Assembly: GCF_900456975.1 (NCBI RefSeq)
Contig: NZ_UGYM01000002.1
Location: 4,030,001 to 4,094,000, forward strand
Source of the DNA: Shewanella baltica
GTDB lineage: Bacteria; Pseudomonadota; Gammaproteobacteria; Enterobacterales; Shewanellaceae
Direction: 5' to 3'
Length of the DNA: 64,000 nucleotides
Of this stretch, positions 26,000 through 50,398 are shown one piece after another (position 1 is the stretch's first letter; each line of letters begins with the position of its first letter). The position numbers and the translations under genes were made by a program. The notes beneath the pieces were generated by a model. It saw only the letters and a program-made list of their open reading frames with translations, did no database searches and was not told the origin of the DNA.

Positions 26000-27637
26000 T
26001 TACTTAACGGCAGCCGCTTCAGCTTTAGCCACTAAATTTGCCGCGCGGTTCATCACGTGGAAAATGTGGTTCTGCTCAACCGTACCTTGGATAAGATCCG
26101 AACTTGGGCCGCGGGCGAAAATCGCCACGTCTTCCCCTGCATGGGTCTCATCGCTTAATGGCACTAGGGCTTCTTGATGGAATCCTGCACTTTGGGTATC
26201 AACAAAGTTCAAGTCCTTACGGCCTGCGTCCACTGGGAAGTTGTAACGCTCATCGCCACCTGTAGCTAATGACGCATAGCCCATGCCGTTAGCGTAACCG
26301 ACTGTGGTATATGGCAAACCGTTAGCATCGGTAGAGTTAGTCACTTCAGCAACGCCGTTGGCGTCGTTCGACTTCACTAAACCTAGGATAGGGTTACCGC
26401 GAGTTGGATAACCTGCGATGGTGAACACATGGCTGTGATCCGCTGTAACCATTAACAAGGTATCGTTTGCCGAGGTTTTTTCCATCGCCACACGCACCGC
26501 TTCAGACAATGCCATTGTGTCATAAAGCGCACGCGCCGCATTACCTGCATGGTGAGCGTGGTCGATACGGCCAGCTTCAACAATCAGCACGAAGCCTTTT
26601 GAGTTTTTCTTCAGAATATCAATCGACTTAGCCGTCATTTCCGCCAGTGATGGCTCGCCAGTCACGCCGGCTTCTTTACGATCGTAGTCGTATTCCATGT
26701 GCGATGAGTTGAATAGGCCAAGCAAATGATCTGTGCTTGCCGCATCCACACTGAGGAAACCGTCCCTGTCTTGCACGTAAGCGGCGTTAGTGTATTTGGT
26801 CATCCACTCAGCAGTGAGGTCGCGACCATCGTTACGCTTACCCGCTTTACCTTCTGGATCAACGGTCGTCTTAGGAATAAAGGCGCGGCGACCGCCACCC
26901 ATCATCACGTTAAGACCGCTGCCATAGTTAAAGTCGAGCATTTGCGCGGCGATATCTTTACAGCCGTTAGTCACAGCTTCTGCTGGCAGGTTTGAATCGG
27001 CTTCCCAATCACGTTCTGGCACATGGGCGTAAGTTGCCGCAGGGGTTGCGTGGGTTAAACGCGCAGTCGTTACCACACCCGTTGCCATTCCCGCCATTGC
27101 AGCAAGCTCTAATGATGTCACGAGATTTTGATCTTTAGTCGAAGCACAGTTAGCACGAACTACGCCTTCAGCTTGTGAAATCACGCCCACGTCGGTTTTT
27201 ACACCTGTCATCATCGCTGACATAGTGCCTGCAGAATCCGGCGTTTGGCCGTCGACGTTATAGGTTTTAGAAAGACCCACATAAGGCAGAGTTTCGAAAG
27301 ATAACGAGTTTTCTTCACCCGTTTTGCCTTTTAGCTGGCCTTCTAAAATACGTGCGGCAGTAATGGTCGATACACCCATACCGTCACCCACAAACAGGAT
27401 CACGTTTTTCGCGGCGCCAACATCATTGTTAACAGTTAAGCCTTCGGCTTTGGTCACGCGAGCTTGTGCATCGACATACCACTGATTCACAGCAGTCCAA
27501 TCTTTGCCATTGCTACCGTTAGACCCATTTGATCCATTGCTACCCGGTGTTCCCGCGGTACCGTTATCACCATCGCTACCGCATGCGGCTAAACCCAGCA
27601 TGGCTGAAATCGCGACTACTAGTAATTTCTTATTCAT
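26000..27637 (-). CDS. Alkaline phosphatase (PhoA superfamily), lipoprotein form
   Basis: A 545-residue phosphomonoesterase. The signal ends in a lipobox, LGLAAC (Cys 19), followed by a short GSN-repeat linker (four tandem Gly-Ser-Asn) that would hold the enzyme off the membrane. Metal and catalytic motifs are present: FVGDGMGVSTITAAR, the nucleophile Ser in PDSAGTMSAMMTGVKT, EAGRIDHAHHAGNAARAL and TADHSHVFTIAGYP. I chose the ATG at 27637 (MNKKLLVV), which has TGGAGC upstream. It lies 40 bases after the paralogous phosphatase gene and is about 55-60% similar by eye. Confidence 0.92.
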   Translation of the reverse strand: MNKKLLVVAISAMLGLAACGSDGDNGTAGTPGSNGSNGSNGSNGKDWTAVNQWYVDAQARVTKAEGLTVNNDVGAAKNVILFVGDGMGVSTITAARILEGQLKGKTGEENSLSFETLPYVGLSKTYNVDGQTPDSAGTMSAMMTGVKTDVGVISQAEGVVRANCASTKDQNLVTSLELAAMAGMATGVVTTARLTHATPAATYAHVPERDWEADSNLPAEAVTNGCKDIAAQMLDFNYGSGLNVMMGGGRRAFIPKTTVDPEGKAGKRNDGRDLTAEWMTKYTNAAYVQDRDGFLSVDAASTDHLLGLFNSSHMEYDYDRKEAGVTGEPSLAEMTAKSIDILKKNSKGFVLIVEAGRIDHAHHAGNAARALYDTMALSEAVRVAMEKTSANDTLLMVTADHSHVFTIAGYPTRGNPILGLVKSNDANGVAEVTNSTDANGLPYTTVGYANGMGYASLATGGDERYNFPVDAGRKDLNFVDTQSAGFHQEALVPLSDETHAGEDVAIFARGPSSDLIQGTVEQNHIFHVMNRAANLVAKAEAAAVK

Positions 27638-27677
27638 TTTTTGCTCCAAAAGTGAGGACTCAGTAACTAATACGTGA

Positions 27678-29183
27678 TTAGTACTTAGTGCCGCCAAGCT
27701 GCTGCGCTTGGTTGATAATGTGGAAGATCACGTTCTGCTCAATCACGCCCTGAACCAGATTCGAACCTGGACCTCTGGCATGTAAGCTGATGTCTTCACC
27801 GGCGTGAGTCTCACTTTCCATTGGGATAAGCGCTTGTTGCATAAAATCTTTATCTTGCGTATCGACTGAGGTTAAGTCGTCACGCACACCCACCACAGCA
27901 CCAGGGCCGTTGGTATAAGCCAGCGTGGTGTAAGGCTTGTTGTCATTCGCCGTCGCTAATGTGCCATCGACGTTATGCACTAAACCTAAGATAGGGTTAC
28001 CGCGTTTTGGGTAGCCTGCGATAGTGAACACATGGCTGTGATCCGCTGTTACCATGATCAAGGTATCATCGCTGCTCGTCGCATCCATTGCCGCTTTCAC
28101 TGCGTTAGATAATTCAACCGCATCGGTCAACGCGCGGCTCGCATTGCCCGCATGGTGACCATGGTCGATACGGCCAGATTCAACGATCAGCAAGTAGCCT
28201 TTGTCGTTCTTCTTCAAAATATCGAGGGATTTAGCGGTCATTTCAGTTAGTGATGGCTCACCACCGACGTCATCAGCGCGGTCTGCTTCGTATTCCATGT
28301 GTGATGGATTGAATAGGCCGAGTAAATGATCTGTGTTGGCAGCATCAATGGCGTCGAAGCCTTTTTTGTCCCACACGTAAGCAGATTTGCTGAAATTATC
28401 GACCCAAGCTTTAGTTAAGTCTTTACCGTCTTTACGTTTACCGGCTTTGTTCTCGCCATCTTTCACTGTTGTGGGTAGGAAGTAGCTACGTCCGCCACCT
28501 AATGCCACAGTTAACGAATTGGCTTCATCACGCATCACTAATTGGCTTGCGATGTCGGTACAACCGTTCGCAACCGCTTCGGCAGGTAAGTTGAAATCGC
28601 CTTCCCAATCGCGCTCAGGGGTTTTGGCATAGGTTGCCGCTGGCGTGGCGTGGGTTAAACGCGCCGTAGTGACTATGCCTGTTGATAATCCTTTGGCATT
28701 AGCAAGGTCGACCAGTGAAACAAGTTCATTGCCTTTTGAAGACAAACAGTTACCACGTAAGCTGGTATCTGAAATAGAGATAATACCCGCCTTGGTTTTA
28801 ACGCCTGTCGCCATGGCTGTCATAGTGCCCGCAGAATCTGGCGTTTGTTGGTTAGTGTTATAGGTTTTCACTAACGCCGTGTGGGGGAACTGTTCGAAAC
28901 TTAAGAAGTTTTCTTCGCCGCCTTGATTGTCAGCTTTATCCTGCCCTTGCAGAATACGGGCTGCCGTTAGCGTCGAAATACTCATGCCGTCACCGACAAA
29001 TAAAATCACATTTTTAGCGGTTTTTTTAGTGTCGACTTGGGCTTTAGCCACCACGTTTGCCGCACTGTCTTTAAACCACTGGCTGTCTGTTTGTGTTGCG
29101 GGCAGGACTGCAGCATGAGCTACAACCGTCATTAAGCTGCAGGAGATAGCTGCAGCGATCCGTTTAATATTCATCACGTTCAT
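27678..29183 (-). CDS. Alkaline phosphatase (PhoA superfamily), soluble periplasmic form
   Basis: A 501-residue enzyme with a cleavable signal peptide (about residues 1-24, ending VVAHAA). It has the same catalytic layout as the next gene: FVGDGMSISTLTAAR, PDSAGTMTAMATGVKT (nucleophile Ser), ESGRIDHGHHAGNASRAL and TADHSHVFTIAGYP. It releases phosphate from organic phosphomonoesters in the periplasm. A GTG codon directly precedes the ATG used. No convincing Pho box was seen upstream, so phosphate control is not shown by the sequence. Confidence 0.92.
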   Translation of the reverse strand: MNVMNIKRIAAAISCSLMTVVAHAAVLPATQTDSQWFKDSAANVVAKAQVDTKKTAKNVILFVGDGMSISTLTAARILQGQDKADNQGGEENFLSFEQFPHTALVKTYNTNQQTPDSAGTMTAMATGVKTKAGIISISDTSLRGNCLSSKGNELVSLVDLANAKGLSTGIVTTARLTHATPAATYAKTPERDWEGDFNLPAEAVANGCTDIASQLVMRDEANSLTVALGGGRSYFLPTTVKDGENKAGKRKDGKDLTKAWVDNFSKSAYVWDKKGFDAIDAANTDHLLGLFNPSHMEYEADRADDVGGEPSLTEMTAKSLDILKKNDKGYLLIVESGRIDHGHHAGNASRALTDAVELSNAVKAAMDATSSDDTLIMVTADHSHVFTIAGYPKRGNPILGLVHNVDGTLATANDNKPYTTLAYTNGPGAVVGVRDDLTSVDTQDKDFMQQALIPMESETHAGEDISLHARGPGSNLVQGVIEQNVIFHIINQAQQLGGTKY

Positions 29184-43488: not shown

Positions 43489-43561
43489 CCATGCTCATCA
43501 GCTCAGCCATTCGATTAACCGCGCTTAATTAAATGGTTGCTCAGGCATAAAAGGCAGGTGA

Positions 43562-43855
43562 CTACCAGCGGGTATCATTTTCACATGGCTCACCATCATG
43601 GTCGCCATCCATCTTTGTATTGGGGCAGTATTTAACGAAAAACTCCGCCTCTGCACGTGAGGTCATTTGGCTGCAATACTGACGACCATCACACCTGAAA
43701 TTATGAGACATTATCGCCGCAGCCTCCTTCGCTTTATCAATAGCCTGACTATCGATAATCGGCTCTTGTGCAGCCTCGTAGGACTCATACTCCGCCTTGC
43801 CGTAATAATGCCAAACACCGTAGCCAATGAGCGCTAATAACAATATCCGTTTCAC
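43562..43855 (-). CDS. Excalibur-domain protein with one membrane anchor
   Basis: A 97-residue protein: an N-terminal hydrophobic anchor (about residues 3-17), a short helical linker, then an Excalibur-type domain (FRCDGRQYCSQMTSRAEAEF, MDGDHDGEPCE). The domain is clearly related to the tail of the cold-shock fusion at 34379-35032, sharing the Cys spacing and the Asp-rich calcium-like loop. Thirteen bases separate it from the lipoprotein upstream on the same strand, so the two are probably one operon. Confidence 0.82.
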   Translation of the reverse strand: MKRILLLALIGYGVWHYYGKAEYESYEAAQEPIIDSQAIDKAKEAAAIMSHNFRCDGRQYCSQMTSRAEAEFFVKYCPNTKMDGDHDGEPCENDTRW

Positions 43856-43868
43856 CTGACATCCCCCA

Positions 43869-44273
43869 TTATTTTTGTTTTTCAGTATGCGAGCTTAAGC
43901 CAGTTAGCTCAATACTGCTATAGCTACAGACCCTTGTGATTGACGTGCCTGCGGAGTTAATACGTCGTTCATCATTGAGTTTTAGTGTTGTATGGATTAA
44001 ATACTGGCAGTTTGCATCACTGTCGATGGATTCCAACTGTATAAAAGTAGGTAGCTTATTTGGTTTATATTCAAGGAGTAAAGGTTCGATACCAAATTCA
44101 TTACGTAACCACTGCAAGAAAATGTCGTAGCTGTCATCAAACTTAAGTTGCCGCTCAATGCGTTCTTGCCAAATCCCATCCTTAATTTTCACCTCTCCGA
44201 TTTTTGGATCTGGGGCATTACAACCATACACCGAACTAAATATCAGCAATATCACAAGCAAGCATTTCAACAT
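43869..44273 (-). CDS. Hypothetical lipoprotein
   Basis: A 134-residue protein with a lipobox SVYGC (Cys 18). The mature part mixes helix (RIERQLKFDDSYDIFLQWLRNEFG) and strand (TFIQLESIDSDANCQYLIHT) and has two further Cys. I do not recognise a family. It is A/T-richer than its neighbours and lies at the left edge of the repeat-rich accessory stretch. Co-transcribed with the Excalibur gene. Confidence 0.7.
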   Translation of the reverse strand: MLKCLLVILLIFSSVYGCNAPDPKIGEVKIKDGIWQERIERQLKFDDSYDIFLQWLRNEFGIEPLLLEYKPNKLPTFIQLESIDSDANCQYLIHTTLKLNDERRINSAGTSITRVCSYSSIELTGLSSHTEKQK

Positions 44274-44348
44274 CGAGTAACCTTGTTATCTAATTTAATG
44301 GTTCAAACAAACAGTTTAAAAAGCCAAAGCGGCATACTAACAATAAAT

Positions 44349-44482
44349 GCAGAAAAAGAGAGCGACGATACCACAGAGGTCGAAAATTGATCCTTATCTT
44401 CCCCCTTTGTCTCGGCCAAGAGGCACTAGATGAAATGGCATGAGCGAGACATGGCTGCCCAAAAAGATATGCCTGTCCTCGG
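44349..44482. repeat. ~134-bp direct repeat, left copy
   Basis: Begins GCAGAAAAAG and includes GATCCTTATCTTCC and GATATGCCT; repeated at 44888-45021, 539 bases on, with roughly three-quarters identity by eye. It flanks the inverted palindromic element at 44583-44830. Confidence 0.75.
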
Positions 44483-44582
44483 TTTCTTTCTCAGAAAGAA
44501 ATGTGTCTGTCCTCGCTTTCGATCTTATCAAAGGTTGACAGACTATTTTGCTGCTCGTTTGCAGCTTAACAGCCGAAGTAAA

Positions 44583-44830
44583 TCAAGATCGTGGTGCTTC
44601 ACCCCACACCCGACCAAGGAGGACTGCTCGTCCTATCCTCCTTGGATGCTGCAAGACGCCCCTAGCGAAGTTACATGCATTAGTTACTGGTCTCATACTC
44701 CAATAAAAATTGCCTAACGGCTCAGATGGGACATCCCTGTCCCCCCGAGCCTGCGCCATCATCCATGATGTCGCCACGGCATTTTTATCTGCGTATTTCG
44801 ACAACTTCGCAGGGGAAGGTGAACTCCTGT
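44583..44830 (-). repeat. ~250-bp modular palindromic element, copy 2 (inverted)
   Basis: Same family as 21848-22078 and 48234-48477, in the opposite orientation. It has CCAAGGAGGA/TCCTCCTTGG and, on its own strand, TCCCCTGCGAAGTTG at its start and variable hairpins such as GGGACAGGGATGTCCC. With copy 3 it forms an inverted pair around the SMC-like gene. Confidence 0.87.
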
Positions 44831-44887
44831 CGCTTTGGTGTTGCCTGCTATTTGCTAAAAAATGTGCACATCCCGTCTTCGATAAAA

Positions 44888-45021
44888 GCAGAAAAAGCGA
44901 GCGACCAAAGCACTAAGGTCGAAGACTGATCCTTATCTTCCACCATTGGTTCCGCAAAGAGACATTAAATCAAATGGTATGAACGAAACATAGATGCCAA
45001 AAAACGATATGCCTACCCCAC
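44888..45021. repeat. ~134-bp direct repeat, right copy
   Basis: Partner of 44349-44482. After it, up to 45491, are 470 bases with no gene or repeat that I can support, apart from the ribosome-binding site of the SMC-like gene. Confidence 0.75.
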
Positions 45022-45491
45022 TTTCTGCATTTTGCCTGTCCTCGCTTTCTACAATTTATCGCCATCCAACCCTAAAGAAGCTTATCCTACTCAACTAAAT
45101 GATTTATACACCTGTCTAATAGCCTTTAGCTGTTCTGTATCATTTGTGAGCTTATCTAAGGTTATGTTAATCGCAAACTGGTAACTTTGGTTTTACGCTG
45201 AGAAGACTTTTAACAAATATTTGTTGGAATTGGCATGCTCTGTAGAAGCAAGAATTCCATGTCACAAATCAGTCGGGATTAAATTTAGCCTGCCCCGTTT
45301 ATTTGCAGAAAGTGGCAAATGGTCTCAGGCATGAGGCGAGTAATAATGTGGCCCTAGCTTGCAGTCTGAAAGTCAAAACCATGGACGGTAGCCGTCACTA
45401 ATGGCAGAGATAGAGTTGAAGATGTCTGACTCTTTCAAAGTCAAAAAGGCTATGCCTGAACACAGCAATGTCAGTTACAAAGGAGATTCGG

Positions 45492-48137
45492 ATGGCATCA
45501 GCAGAACACGATTATCAGCTTTTTATTCAATGGCTTCATCAACCTGACAGAGAGACGCCAGAGGACGTTCGCCGCTTTGCTCGGCTCGTACTGGACAACT
45601 TTGAAAGCGTCTGTGCAACTACCCGTCATCGCAGTCAACGGTCAGTACATTTGGTTGACCTAGCACGTCAACGGTTCACCACGACAGATCCAGATCAACC
45701 TCAGATGGACGCCATTGCGGTAGGGGCTGGATGGAGCTGGCAGACATTGTGCCATATCTCTCTTGGACCATTCAGGGGCTTTAGGAATGTTGAAGACTTT
45801 GATCTCTCACGACGCATAGTATTGTTTTATGGCCCCAATGGCAGCGGCAAGACAAGTCTTTGCGAGGCGCTCGAGTTTGCCCTGCTCGGAGCAGTTGATG
45901 AGGGGGCACAAAAACGGATCGATGCAACTCAGTACCTAAGCAATATCCATGAAGGTCGGTTTGTACCTCCTCAGTTAGCGGCATTGGACGCACAAGGTCA
46001 GCGAGTTGTCGTTCAAGCGGATGCCGATGCATATCGTTTTTGCTTCATTGAGAAAAACCGTATTGACTCCTTCTCTAGGATTGCTGCAAAACCTACAGGC
46101 CAGAAAACCGAGCTAATAGCAGCGTTGTTCGGTATGGACGACTTCAATGAGTTTGTAGGGCAATTTAATGAATCGATTGATACACAGCTCTCGATTCAGC
46201 CTGTTCAAGGTCAGGAGCTAACACAAAGACGCCAAGCAATTGCTCATGACACCGAACTACTTGTTGGTGAAGCAGCCTCTATCGCAGCATTCGAGCGGGT
46301 TGAGCGAGAGTACGCAGATGCTTTCCAGACAGGATTGACATATGCGCAGTTGCAACAGGCGGTGGGTTCTGCCGAGGTTCCCTGTCGATTACAGACTTTG
46401 ATAGAAATATTAAATCAACCTGCGCCAGCCCTTTACGGCATACGGCATCAGGACCTCCTTGCTGCATTTAGTGTTGCAGATGAGGCTCAAAAGCTCGTTG
46501 AGGAGCTTGTTGGCAAGTTGGCATTACAGCAAGATGGTGCAGCATACCAAAACCTCTACTGCGCAGTTCTTGAACTACAGGCACTTTCTCCTGACCATTG
46601 CCCAGCATGCGATACTACAATTGTTGGGGAACTACACGTTCATGCCAATCCTTTTATAAAGGCTGAACAAGGTCTGGTACATCTGCGGGAGCTGACTCTG
46701 CTCAAACAACGATACCAAGCAGCTATTGATCAAAGGCGAGTCGCCTCAGATAACTTGCGCAGGTACTTCGCTAATTTTTCCCAGCGTGTTGGAGCCACTG
46801 TCAATAGTGAGCATGAGCTACTCCGCTATCTGGCAAATCCAGGTTTTCAACCTGATACTGCATGGTGGAAGATCGGGTACAACCCTACTGCCGGAGGCGT
46901 ATCGCTATCACAACAGGCGGTCAACTACGCACTTCAGTTAGAGGCGGCTGATACCGCTATCCAGCAAAATCTTAAGCAACGTGCCCAACTTATTACTGAG
47001 CGAGATCGTCTTTTCGAAGCGCGTATCGCATTGGCTGAGCATGCTGAACGACGCAAACAAGCTAGTGTAGCAATTGCAAAGGCTCGTCAACGCGTCGATG
47101 TTTTTGAAGCACAAAATACGGCACTGATCACTGCAGTTGTGGAGGAGGAGACCCGCATTGCAGCGGAGGTAAGAATTCAAGTTGCCTACAATAAATTATT
47201 GAGTCTGCTACGGCATTACCGCTCGGAGTTACCTGGAACGTTGATGGCGGGTTTGAACGACTTGGCTATGGAGCTGTACAACGAATTCAATGTCCGTGAT
47301 GCAGCAGAAGATAAGCTGGCAGCTCTACACCTCCCTGTTACTGGGGACGGTCGTATTGAGTTGAGCTTCCAAGGCTCTCCAGAAGCTCGTGTTGATGCTC
47401 TTCAGGTTCTGAGTGAAGGGCATGTCAGATGCCTTGGGTTGGCCATCCTATTAGCAAAAGCTTCTCACATCAAGGCACCTACAGTGATCTTCGATGATGC
47501 AATAAATGCTATCGACCATGAGCATCGTCAGGGTATTCGGGAGGCATTGTTCCAGAGCGAGCGCTTTGCCAATACGCAGATCATCGTGACCTGCCACAGC
47601 AATGAATTCATCAAAGACATCCAGAATCATATTGATCGTGCCCAGTGGTTATCTTACACGTTCCGTCATCACACTGGGGATCATCATCCGCGTGTTCTGC
47701 GGGATTTGCCTGCACAAGCCTATCTTATAAACGCTAGGGCTGCTATTGACCGAGGTGACCATCGTGGGGCTCTTCAACCATGTAGACAGGCGTTAGAAAT
47801 GCTCGCTAACAAGATATGGCGATGGCTCGGGCAGTGTAACCAAGGCGTAATTAGTGTCAAGTTGGCAGGCATCGGAGATCAACCCTCGCTACGAAATTTG
47901 TGCGACGGTCTTCGCGCAAGACTGAATGGTGCACGCACATTCGAACATGTTGATAAACAGCCTTTACTTGATGCAATTAATCAAATTCTCGGAATACCTG
48001 AGCAGACATTGCTATGGCAGTATTTAAATAAAGGGACACATGAGGAGCAGGATCGAGAAGATTTTGATGAAGGTGTGGTTGAACAGTTGGTTGCTTTAAT
48101 GGAGACAATAAATAGTTTGAGGCTACGTAATCCCTAA
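45492..48137 (+). CDS. SMC/Rad50-like ATPase with CxxC hook and HEPN-like C-terminus (candidate defence protein)
   Basis: An 881-residue protein. Its N-terminal ~95 residues match nothing I know. Walker A is GPNGSGKTSL (about 114-123). Long helical arms meet at a central CPACD (Cys370/373), like a zinc hook. The ABC signature is LSEGH (about 640), Walker B is TVIFDDAINAID (Asp668-Asp669, with Asp where Glu is usual), and the H-loop is VTCHSNEF (His702). The last ~150 residues are a separate helical domain with RQALE (Arg765/Glu769) and NKGTH (His850), recalling the R-x3-E...H pattern of PrrC/RloC anticodon nucleases; this likeness is inferred. AAAGGAG precedes ATG 45492. It stands alone between inverted repeats. 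Confidence 0.8.
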   Translation: MASAEHDYQLFIQWLHQPDRETPEDVRRFARLVLDNFESVCATTRHRSQRSVHLVDLARQRFTTTDPDQPQMDAIAVGAGWSWQTLCHISLGPFRGFRNVEDFDLSRRIVLFYGPNGSGKTSLCEALEFALLGAVDEGAQKRIDATQYLSNIHEGRFVPPQLAALDAQGQRVVVQADADAYRFCFIEKNRIDSFSRIAAKPTGQKTELIAALFGMDDFNEFVGQFNESIDTQLSIQPVQGQELTQRRQAIAHDTELLVGEAASIAAFERVEREYADAFQTGLTYAQLQQAVGSAEVPCRLQTLIEILNQPAPALYGIRHQDLLAAFSVADEAQKLVEELVGKLALQQDGAAYQNLYCAVLELQALSPDHCPACDTTIVGELHVHANPFIKAEQGLVHLRELTLLKQRYQAAIDQRRVASDNLRRYFANFSQRVGATVNSEHELLRYLANPGFQPDTAWWKIGYNPTAGGVSLSQQAVNYALQLEAADTAIQQNLKQRAQLITERDRLFEARIALAEHAERRKQASVAIAKARQRVDVFEAQNTALITAVVEEETRIAAEVRIQVAYNKLLSLLRHYRSELPGTLMAGLNDLAMELYNEFNVRDAAEDKLAALHLPVTGDGRIELSFQGSPEARVDALQVLSEGHVRCLGLAILLAKASHIKAPTVIFDDAINAIDHEHRQGIREALFQSERFANTQIIVTCHSNEFIKDIQNHIDRAQWLSYTFRHHTGDHHPRVLRDLPAQAYLINARAAIDRGDHRGALQPCRQALEMLANKIWRWLGQCNQGVISVKLAGIGDQPSLRNLCDGLRARLNGARTFEHVDKQPLLDAINQILGIPEQTLLWQYLNKGTHEEQDREDFDEGVVEQLVALMETINSLRLRNP

Positions 48138-48233
48138 AAAACTCACAAGAAAATGCAACAAGCAGATTGAAAAGATGGAGCTAGTGGCTCTCTGTCCTTT
48201 AGAAATTAACCTGCAACACCGAGACCACAGAAG

Positions 48234-48477
48234 TTCACCATCCCCTGCGAAGTTGCTGAAGGGTGTTGAAGAAAATCGCGTAGCGCAGACAGGACGTCTG
48301 CGTAGCTTTCGGGGTACAGGATGTACCATCGGAAGCGTTAGCGATTTTCGAATAAGCACGAAGCCACTAACCAATGCATATAACTTCGCTAGGGGCGTCT
48401 TGGAGAATCCAAGGAGGATAGGACGAGCAGTCCTCCTTGGTCGGGTGTGGGGTGAAGCCCCACGACTTTGATTTGCT
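48234..48477 (+). repeat. ~250-bp modular palindromic element, copy 3
   Basis: Starts TCCCCTGCGAAGTTG and ends GGTGAAGCCCCACGAC. It contains CAGGACGTCTG, GGTACAGGATGTACC and CCAAGGAGGA/TCCTCCTTGG hairpins. The last ~90 bases are nearly identical to copies 1 and 2. It lies 97 bases after the SMC-like gene's stop. Confidence 0.88.
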
Positions 48478-48534
48478 TTTAGAAGCAATCAAGAATGATG
48501 AGACAACCTGAACCACTATTACCAGACCAAAAAC

Positions 48535-48568
48535 AAAACCCCGACTCAGTTACCCGAGTCGGGGTTTT
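48535..48568. terminator. Strong bidirectional terminator between SMC-like gene and groL
   Basis: AAAACCCCGACTC pairs with GAGTCGGGGTTTT around an 8-base loop, with T-runs on both sides. The 170 bases between it and the groL stop hold a smaller inverted motif (GGCG...CGCC, about 48653-48703) but no gene. Confidence 0.88.
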
Positions 48569-48739
48569 CATTTTTCTCTTACAAGAATTTAGGTTTAAGC
48601 GATTAAGCTAAAGACCGCAGATGTTTTTGTGCAGGATAAAACGTTCAGTACAAGGCGCTGTGAGCGTAGCATACGTTGTGTGTATGTGAGCGAGCAGCAA
48701 CGCCGTAATCACCGATTTAAACCAGCAAAAAAGCAAAAA

Positions 48740-50398
<1,659 letters not shown>

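Follow-up and report, generated by a model that had tools for sequence, protein, structure and literature searches.

The ATPase gene and its product

The DNA analysed here (the window) is a stretch of 64,000 nucleotides from Shewanella baltica, positions 4030001–4094000 of contig C2 in a genome of 5.3 Mb on two contigs. Next to groL (48740–50386, minus strand) it carries a gene for an RloC-like ABC ATPase with a zinc hook and a predicted C-terminal HEPN-fold domain. The reading frame, 45468–48137, is intact and open throughout, and gives 889 residues from an in-frame ATG at 45468. Because an AAGGAG precedes a later ATG at 45492, and because 881 residues is the exact length of 68 of the 120 listed homologues, the 881-residue protein (45492–48137, plus strand) is the likely product.

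An earlier inspection of the letters alone (the sequence-only reading) had described an 881-residue ATPase with a Walker A motif, a CxxC hook, an LSEGH signature, and a D-D Walker B, and all of these are present. On the plus strand, an N-terminal helical extension (residues 1–82, 45492–45737) is followed by the Walker A motif GPNGSGKT (residues 114–121, 45831–45854), the zinc-hook motif CPAC (370–373, 46599–46610), the ABC signature LSEGH (640–644, 47409–47423), and the Walker B and D-loop segment FDDAINAID (667–675, with FDD at 667–669; 47490–47516). The predicted HEPN-fold domain spans residues 742–876 (47715–48119) and contains R765-x3-E769 (47784–47798) and the sequence N-K-G-T-H-E-E (846–852, 48027–48047), which holds an RloC-type N-x2-[STC]-H motif. 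Conservation was read from 77 proteins, namely the window protein and 76 chosen from 259 listed homologues, among them a protein from Bacillus and others related to one encoded on a Liquorilactobacillus plasmid. The head and hook residues K120, C370, C373, S641–H644 (SEGH), D668, D669, and H702 (the H-loop) are invariant in all 77, as are R765, E769, W842, N846, K847, G848, H850, and E852 in the tail; R50 in the N-terminal extension is kept in 76.

Pfam matches the protein to SMC_N (60.6 bits), AAA_23, and AAA_21, and with an SMC_N/AAA_23 domain and the head fold it falls in the SMC/Rad50 superfamily. An ABC head with a CxxC zinc-hook coiled coil, as found here, is a trait of RloC. PADLOC and NCBIfam gave partial or below-cut-off matches among the rows shown. 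A clear full-length match to a housekeeping DNA-repair family, which the sequence-only reading had named as telling against its defence interpretation, was not found; the repair equivalogs all score under their cut-offs (recF 50.2 of 172, sbcc 16.1 of 478.5, and RecN 16.8 of 418 bits).

Occurrence and neighbours

In a survey of 129 genomes of the genus, four match at E ≤ 1e-20, these being the present genome, G056, G012, and G071. The G056 homologue is full length at 34% identity; those of G012 and G071, at 26%, belong to another subfamily, and the one in G071 lies far from groL. A full-length homologue is found in two of the 129 genomes, our own included, and the gene is not, therefore, at the same site in all relatives. 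In the class, 3 of 369 genomes match at 1e-60, again including our own. A database search scored 8000 candidates and gave 1708 matches at E ≤ 1e-3, the more distant of which may be other ABC families; among the matches listed are proteins from Pseudomonas and Iodobacter (82–83%), Shewanella xiamenensis (79%), Klebsiella oxytoca (76%), and Stenotrophomonas (74%). In a plasmid search, 30 of 72,556 match, of which 23 are typed conjugative and 23 have at least 80% query coverage, and the ATPase matches none of 50,697 phage records. When the segment 43500–48800 was compared with plasmids, Acinetobacter accounted for 59 of the 81 matching records.

The neighbours of seven contig homologues (L009–L015) were inspected, and ten proteins were tested. 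A NACHT protein lies near the homologue in L009, a DNA methylase in L015, a set of TnsA-like/rve, TniB, and TniQ in L011, and phage-type integrases in L010, L013, and L014. These findings support a patchy, mobile, and defence-associated occurrence of the ATPase. In L012 a small HigBA-like pair, judged by eye, was the sole item recognised.

The gene had been said to stand without a visible partner, and within 5 kb this holds: 993 open reading frames (ORFs) from 20 loci gave one cluster present in three loci and nine present in two. No Mre11/SbcD partner, as SbcC/Rad50 would have, emerged as a gene common to more than three of the 20 loci, in a comparison that included no scan aimed at Mre11. 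The cluster common to three loci includes a gene annotated umuC in L195. The plasmids L021, L022, and L195 have ORFs of this cluster no further than 5 kb from the ATPase, and L022 and L195 also have umuD-type genes.

These neighbours bear on the possibility that the ATPase is an SMC/RecN-like repair or plasmid-maintenance protein, spread by plasmids, that serves repair rather than defence. The SMC_N score would suit such a role, as would the umuD, umuC, S24 peptidase, or SOS-associated peptidase genes annotated nearby on three plasmids, the umuC-cluster ORF on a fourth, and a LexA-like CTGT-N8-ACAG that L009 and L010, from two other genera, have 41–42 bases upstream of the start. Nevertheless, the exact box is missing from 20 of 22 loci, and LexA-like near-matches in the window are no commoner than chance. 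Moreover, the gene occurs in few relatives, no repair equivalog reaches its cut-off, and HEPN-fold tails are not known to act in repair. A repair function thus seems quite improbable. LexA control of the ATPase was also considered and rejected, with an exact box in 2 of 22 loci; the window has the box with one mismatch at 45450–45465, and the other 19 loci checked have at least two.

The variable site beside groL

groL, which forms the fixed side of the site, was located in every one of the 129 genomes, and the regions downstream of it were examined in 120. In G056 the sister ATPase directly adjoins groL, in the same arrangement as in the window. The first ORF of at least 200 residues within 6 kb of groL falls into 90 clusters in the 116 regions that have one. 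Beyond groES, the first ORF in 20 relatives belongs to one cluster in all 20, whereas the groL side of the same 20 holds 18 clusters.

Part of this changing content resembles immune genes. At E ≤ 1e-50, 49 PADLOC families are matched among the 116 first ORFs; the 25 listed include Avs2, GajA, HerA, dCTPase, RT_IV/V/VI, methyltransferases, PDC-S06, and PDC-S73. Among 105 control ORFs 9–14.5 kb away, RtcR models alone reach this level (two models, presumably one protein). Counted by name, the difference is about 14 of 116 proteins (fewer if some are double-named) versus 1 of 105 (Fisher p 0.0008). At 1e-15 the site matches 165 families and the control 12, a contrast that overstates the difference because related models match one protein. 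A smaller per-protein sample at 1e-15 gave 5 of 31, no significant excess; its first ten proteins were non-random, and the control was set at 8 of 105 (12 single-member families under 7 names, the true number being at most 12). Given that sample, the case for a hotspot rests on the strong matches and the turnover.

Individual relatives illustrate the exchange. G063, the closest by groL (98%), has a retron at the site (L055), with a reverse transcriptase of 311 residues and an NDT_II-A effector. An RloC-type protein occupies the site in G055 (L132, L178), the sole such case among 19 PF13166 matches in the genus, and PDC-S06 is there in L062 and L132 and, by clustering with L062, in L121, L138, and L153. 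Taken together, these data point to the 3′ side of groL as a hotspot at which immune genes are swapped among the species of a single genus, and reading this address in further strains would be a cheap route to new systems. Cluster 8 of the hotspot, a recurring protein that by eye is NYN/LabA-like, is found in 14 of 120 regions, including beside the sister ATPase in L127.

How the site arose is suggested by a P4-type integrase cluster that 6 of the 120 regions (L056, L093, L096, L135, L136, and L148) carry at a distance of 218–272 bases from groL; Pfam was run on two of these and identified integrase and arm domains in each. It is plausible that such an integrase founded the hotspot. None was recognised beside the ATPase in the window. 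There, comparing the groL end with the sequence downstream of it, to look for an attachment duplication around the ATPase gene, returned just the repeat described below; in other genomes the same comparison gave scattered matches with no common core visible. In L135, DNA matching the groL end recurs some 12.5 kb away, over 85 bases at 81%, and may be an attachment duplication. L058 has a copy of window positions 48519–48626 (108 bases, 92%) at about 6 kb from groL, and an ORF that by eye is phage-type integrase-like occurs in that region.

The sequence-only reading had proposed looking in relatives for groL set directly beside the lipoprotein genes. A clean empty site was not found; in the regions where the left-flank genes ABC500 or small83 were located, they lie 4–15 kb from groL with other cargo. 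On the groL side, a terminator-like hairpin (48535–48568, no strand assigned) lies downstream of groL. Alignments through groL begin or end at 48518–48535 in 30 of 120 relatives, further out in 3, and nearer groL in 87. The hairpin therefore marks a border of the variable site that is frequent but not universal.

The ATPase gene is also framed by two copies of a dispersed, hairpin-rich repeat, copy 2 at 44577–44823 (minus strand) and copy 3 at 48234–48477 (plus strand), the latter adjoining groL. The pair had been read as possibly bounding a mobile segment with the ATPase as its cargo, and the copies are indeed real and inverted, with arms of 124 nt that are 90% complementary. However, they are 78% alike over 244 nt, and the family has 20 matches, full and partial, genome-wide, so that the pair has no particular link to this gene and lacks the matched ends specific to a composite transposon or repeat-bounded unit. 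In addition, visual inspection of the ORFs that the arms enclose revealed no recognisable transposase, and in relatives copy 3 keeps its position next to groL with different gene content (L062, 92% over 48197–49355; L065, 84%; L061, 76%; part of it in L055). By sequence comparison, then, copy 3 goes with groL rather than with the ATPase, and we dropped the composite unit, which has scarcely any likelihood left. Folded as single-stranded DNA, 48234–48380 gives z = −4.07, which places the hairpins of copy 3 beyond chance; no known RNA family was found in 43500–49000 at E ≤ 0.1. Direct repeats of 123 nt, 80% alike, flank copy 2 (44343–44465 and 44882–45004). Elsewhere in the window, 26375–28691 is a duplication with a period of about 1.6 kb and pieces 73–90% alike.

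The HEPN-like tail, its proposed action, and known systems

The C-terminal residues, for which a structural search had been suggested, are predicted to fold as the helical bundle of a HEPN domain. The nuclease domains of RloC and PrrC are HEPN domains (PMC3710099), and RloC is described with an Arg-X3-Glu-X36–52-His triad whose mutation abolishes tRNase activity, the G. kaustophilus RloC being a demonstrated tRNase that requires its Arg, Glu, and His (PMC2610378). The present tail offers concrete catalytic candidates in R765, E769, N846, and H850. A comparison set of 19 PF13166 proteins from 17 of the 129 genomes, some near-identical, end in, for example, WINDGSH, FINKYSH, or YINRESH, where the ATPase has YLNKGTH. 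The strict pattern [FWY][ILM]N..[STC]H, composed after both protein groups had been inspected, occurs in 16 of the 19, in 59 of 77 ATPase homologues, and in 5 of 893 hotspot-locus ORFs, three of which are the ATPase itself, its sister, and an RloC-type protein; the corresponding counts for a loose form are 18 of 19, 66 of 77, and 26 of 893.

Several observations weigh against an RloC-like nuclease. The canonical HEPN motif R-x4-6-H, found in the majority of HEPN domains although not all, is absent (residues 843–850 read QYLNKGTH). The R765-x3-E769-X80-H850 arrangement falls outside the X36–52 spacing of RloC, and the interval from E769 to H850 is 76–83 residues among homologues. An alternative, R801-x3-D805-X44-H850, fits the RloC range, but R801 is not invariant and the acid varies. 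Profile comparison of the tail with RloC is weak (Prob 0.1; in another run 38, E 3.3e-4), and the Prob 38 alignment matched the RloC R-x3-E to R801, not R765. Against PDC-S06 and the L007 family the tail profile gave Prob <1, with very thin profiles, that of the L007 family amounting in effect to L007 plus junk. Against Pfam at E ≤ 10 there was nothing convincing, the best being EspG (0.0088, in 1 of 8 sequences), and against PDB sequences a poly-alanine model at 7.8e-07 was judged an artefact, with five weaker matches from 0.06. Because of the missing R-x4-6-H, the long E–H spacing, and the weak tail profiles, we claim an RloC-like way of working and not RloC membership.

The same facts could be explained if the tail were not a nuclease but bound RNA or protein, the protein being a DNA-sensing or DNA-tethering ATPase that either stops foreign DNA on its own or calls in a nuclease of the host. 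The missing motif and the lack of a recurring partner nuclease in 20 loci would fit, and certain HEPN domains are thought to be non-catalytic (PMC3710099). Oppositely, six tail polar residues are fixed in 77 of 77 proteins across phyla, the PF13166 proteins share the N-x3-H variant, and the G. kaustophilus enzyme cited above depends on its Arg, Glu, and His for tRNase activity. On balance, a non-nuclease tail appears unlikely.

We consider it probable, instead, that the ATPase is a one-protein immune system of abortive type, of the ABC ATPase/zinc hook/HEPN kind, with the RloC-like working and a function that is predicted. The motifs, the Rad50-like head, the HEPN-like tail fold, the invariant polar residues of the tail, the patchy, mobile, and defence-associated occurrence, and a groL hotspot with immune genes together lead to this view. 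The RloC-like defence role first proposed thus survives in its architecture, predicted tail, and occurrence, but without the repeat-bounded unit. In this mechanism, two subunits would pair by way of the CPAC hook and their heads. The ATP-bound heads would be engaged by foreign or damaged DNA, such as phage or plasmid replication products or ends, and an ATP-driven rearrangement could then bring two HEPN domains together to cut RNA, most likely tRNA, with N846, H850, and R765/E769 in the active site. Translation would halt, and the spread of the invader would be blocked.

A broader suggestion, to which we give somewhat less than even credence, is that the protein represents a widespread, unnamed one-gene immune family, ranging from Pseudomonadota to Bacillota and encoded both chromosomally and on conjugative plasmids. 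Such a family would have a HEPN active site of its own, made up of R-x3-E and N-K-G-x-H-[ED]-E, as well as its own sensor extension, and would cut something different from the tRNA anticodon loop that RloC cleaves. If so, plasmids may carry the family to exclude phages and rival plasmids. In the accessible parts of the open-licence literature (including PMC2610378, PMC3710099, PMC13092281, and PMC10853773), neither the ATPase family nor a groL immune hotspot is described.

Among known systems, Rad50, SbcC, RecF, and SMC proteins share the head fold, and Rad50 and SbcC the hook; the ATPase differs from them in its additional HEPN-fold tail, its patchy distribution, and its lack of a recurring partner gene. 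The PDC-S06 proteins of PADLOC are likewise hook ATPases with a C-terminal tail, although the best score to them is 43.2 bits, covering residues 625–726, and the label takes in both an RloC-type protein (L132) and other hook ATPases. The ABC-HEPN groups APECO1_4465 and ERFG_01251, as described in PMC3710099, also have an ABC domain followed by a C-terminal HEPN domain, and the former is frequently within mobile islands. Closest in plan are RloC and PrrC (PF13166), which are single-gene ABC ATPases with a C-terminal HEPN domain and the N-x2-[STC]-H motif, RloC having a zinc hook as well. Unlike these, the ATPase scores 28.5 bits to PF13166 (AAA_13), under the Pfam cut-off of 36, has an N-terminal extension of about 82 residues and about 30–45 extra residues between E and H, and belongs to a family in which K-G-x-H-[ED]-E is invariant (77 of 77) and whose tails are weakly alignable to theirs by profile. 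Thus, the protein is most likely an immune protein of a distinct RloC-like ABC-HEPN variant, and it adds a distinct, testable family to the ABC-HEPN proteins.
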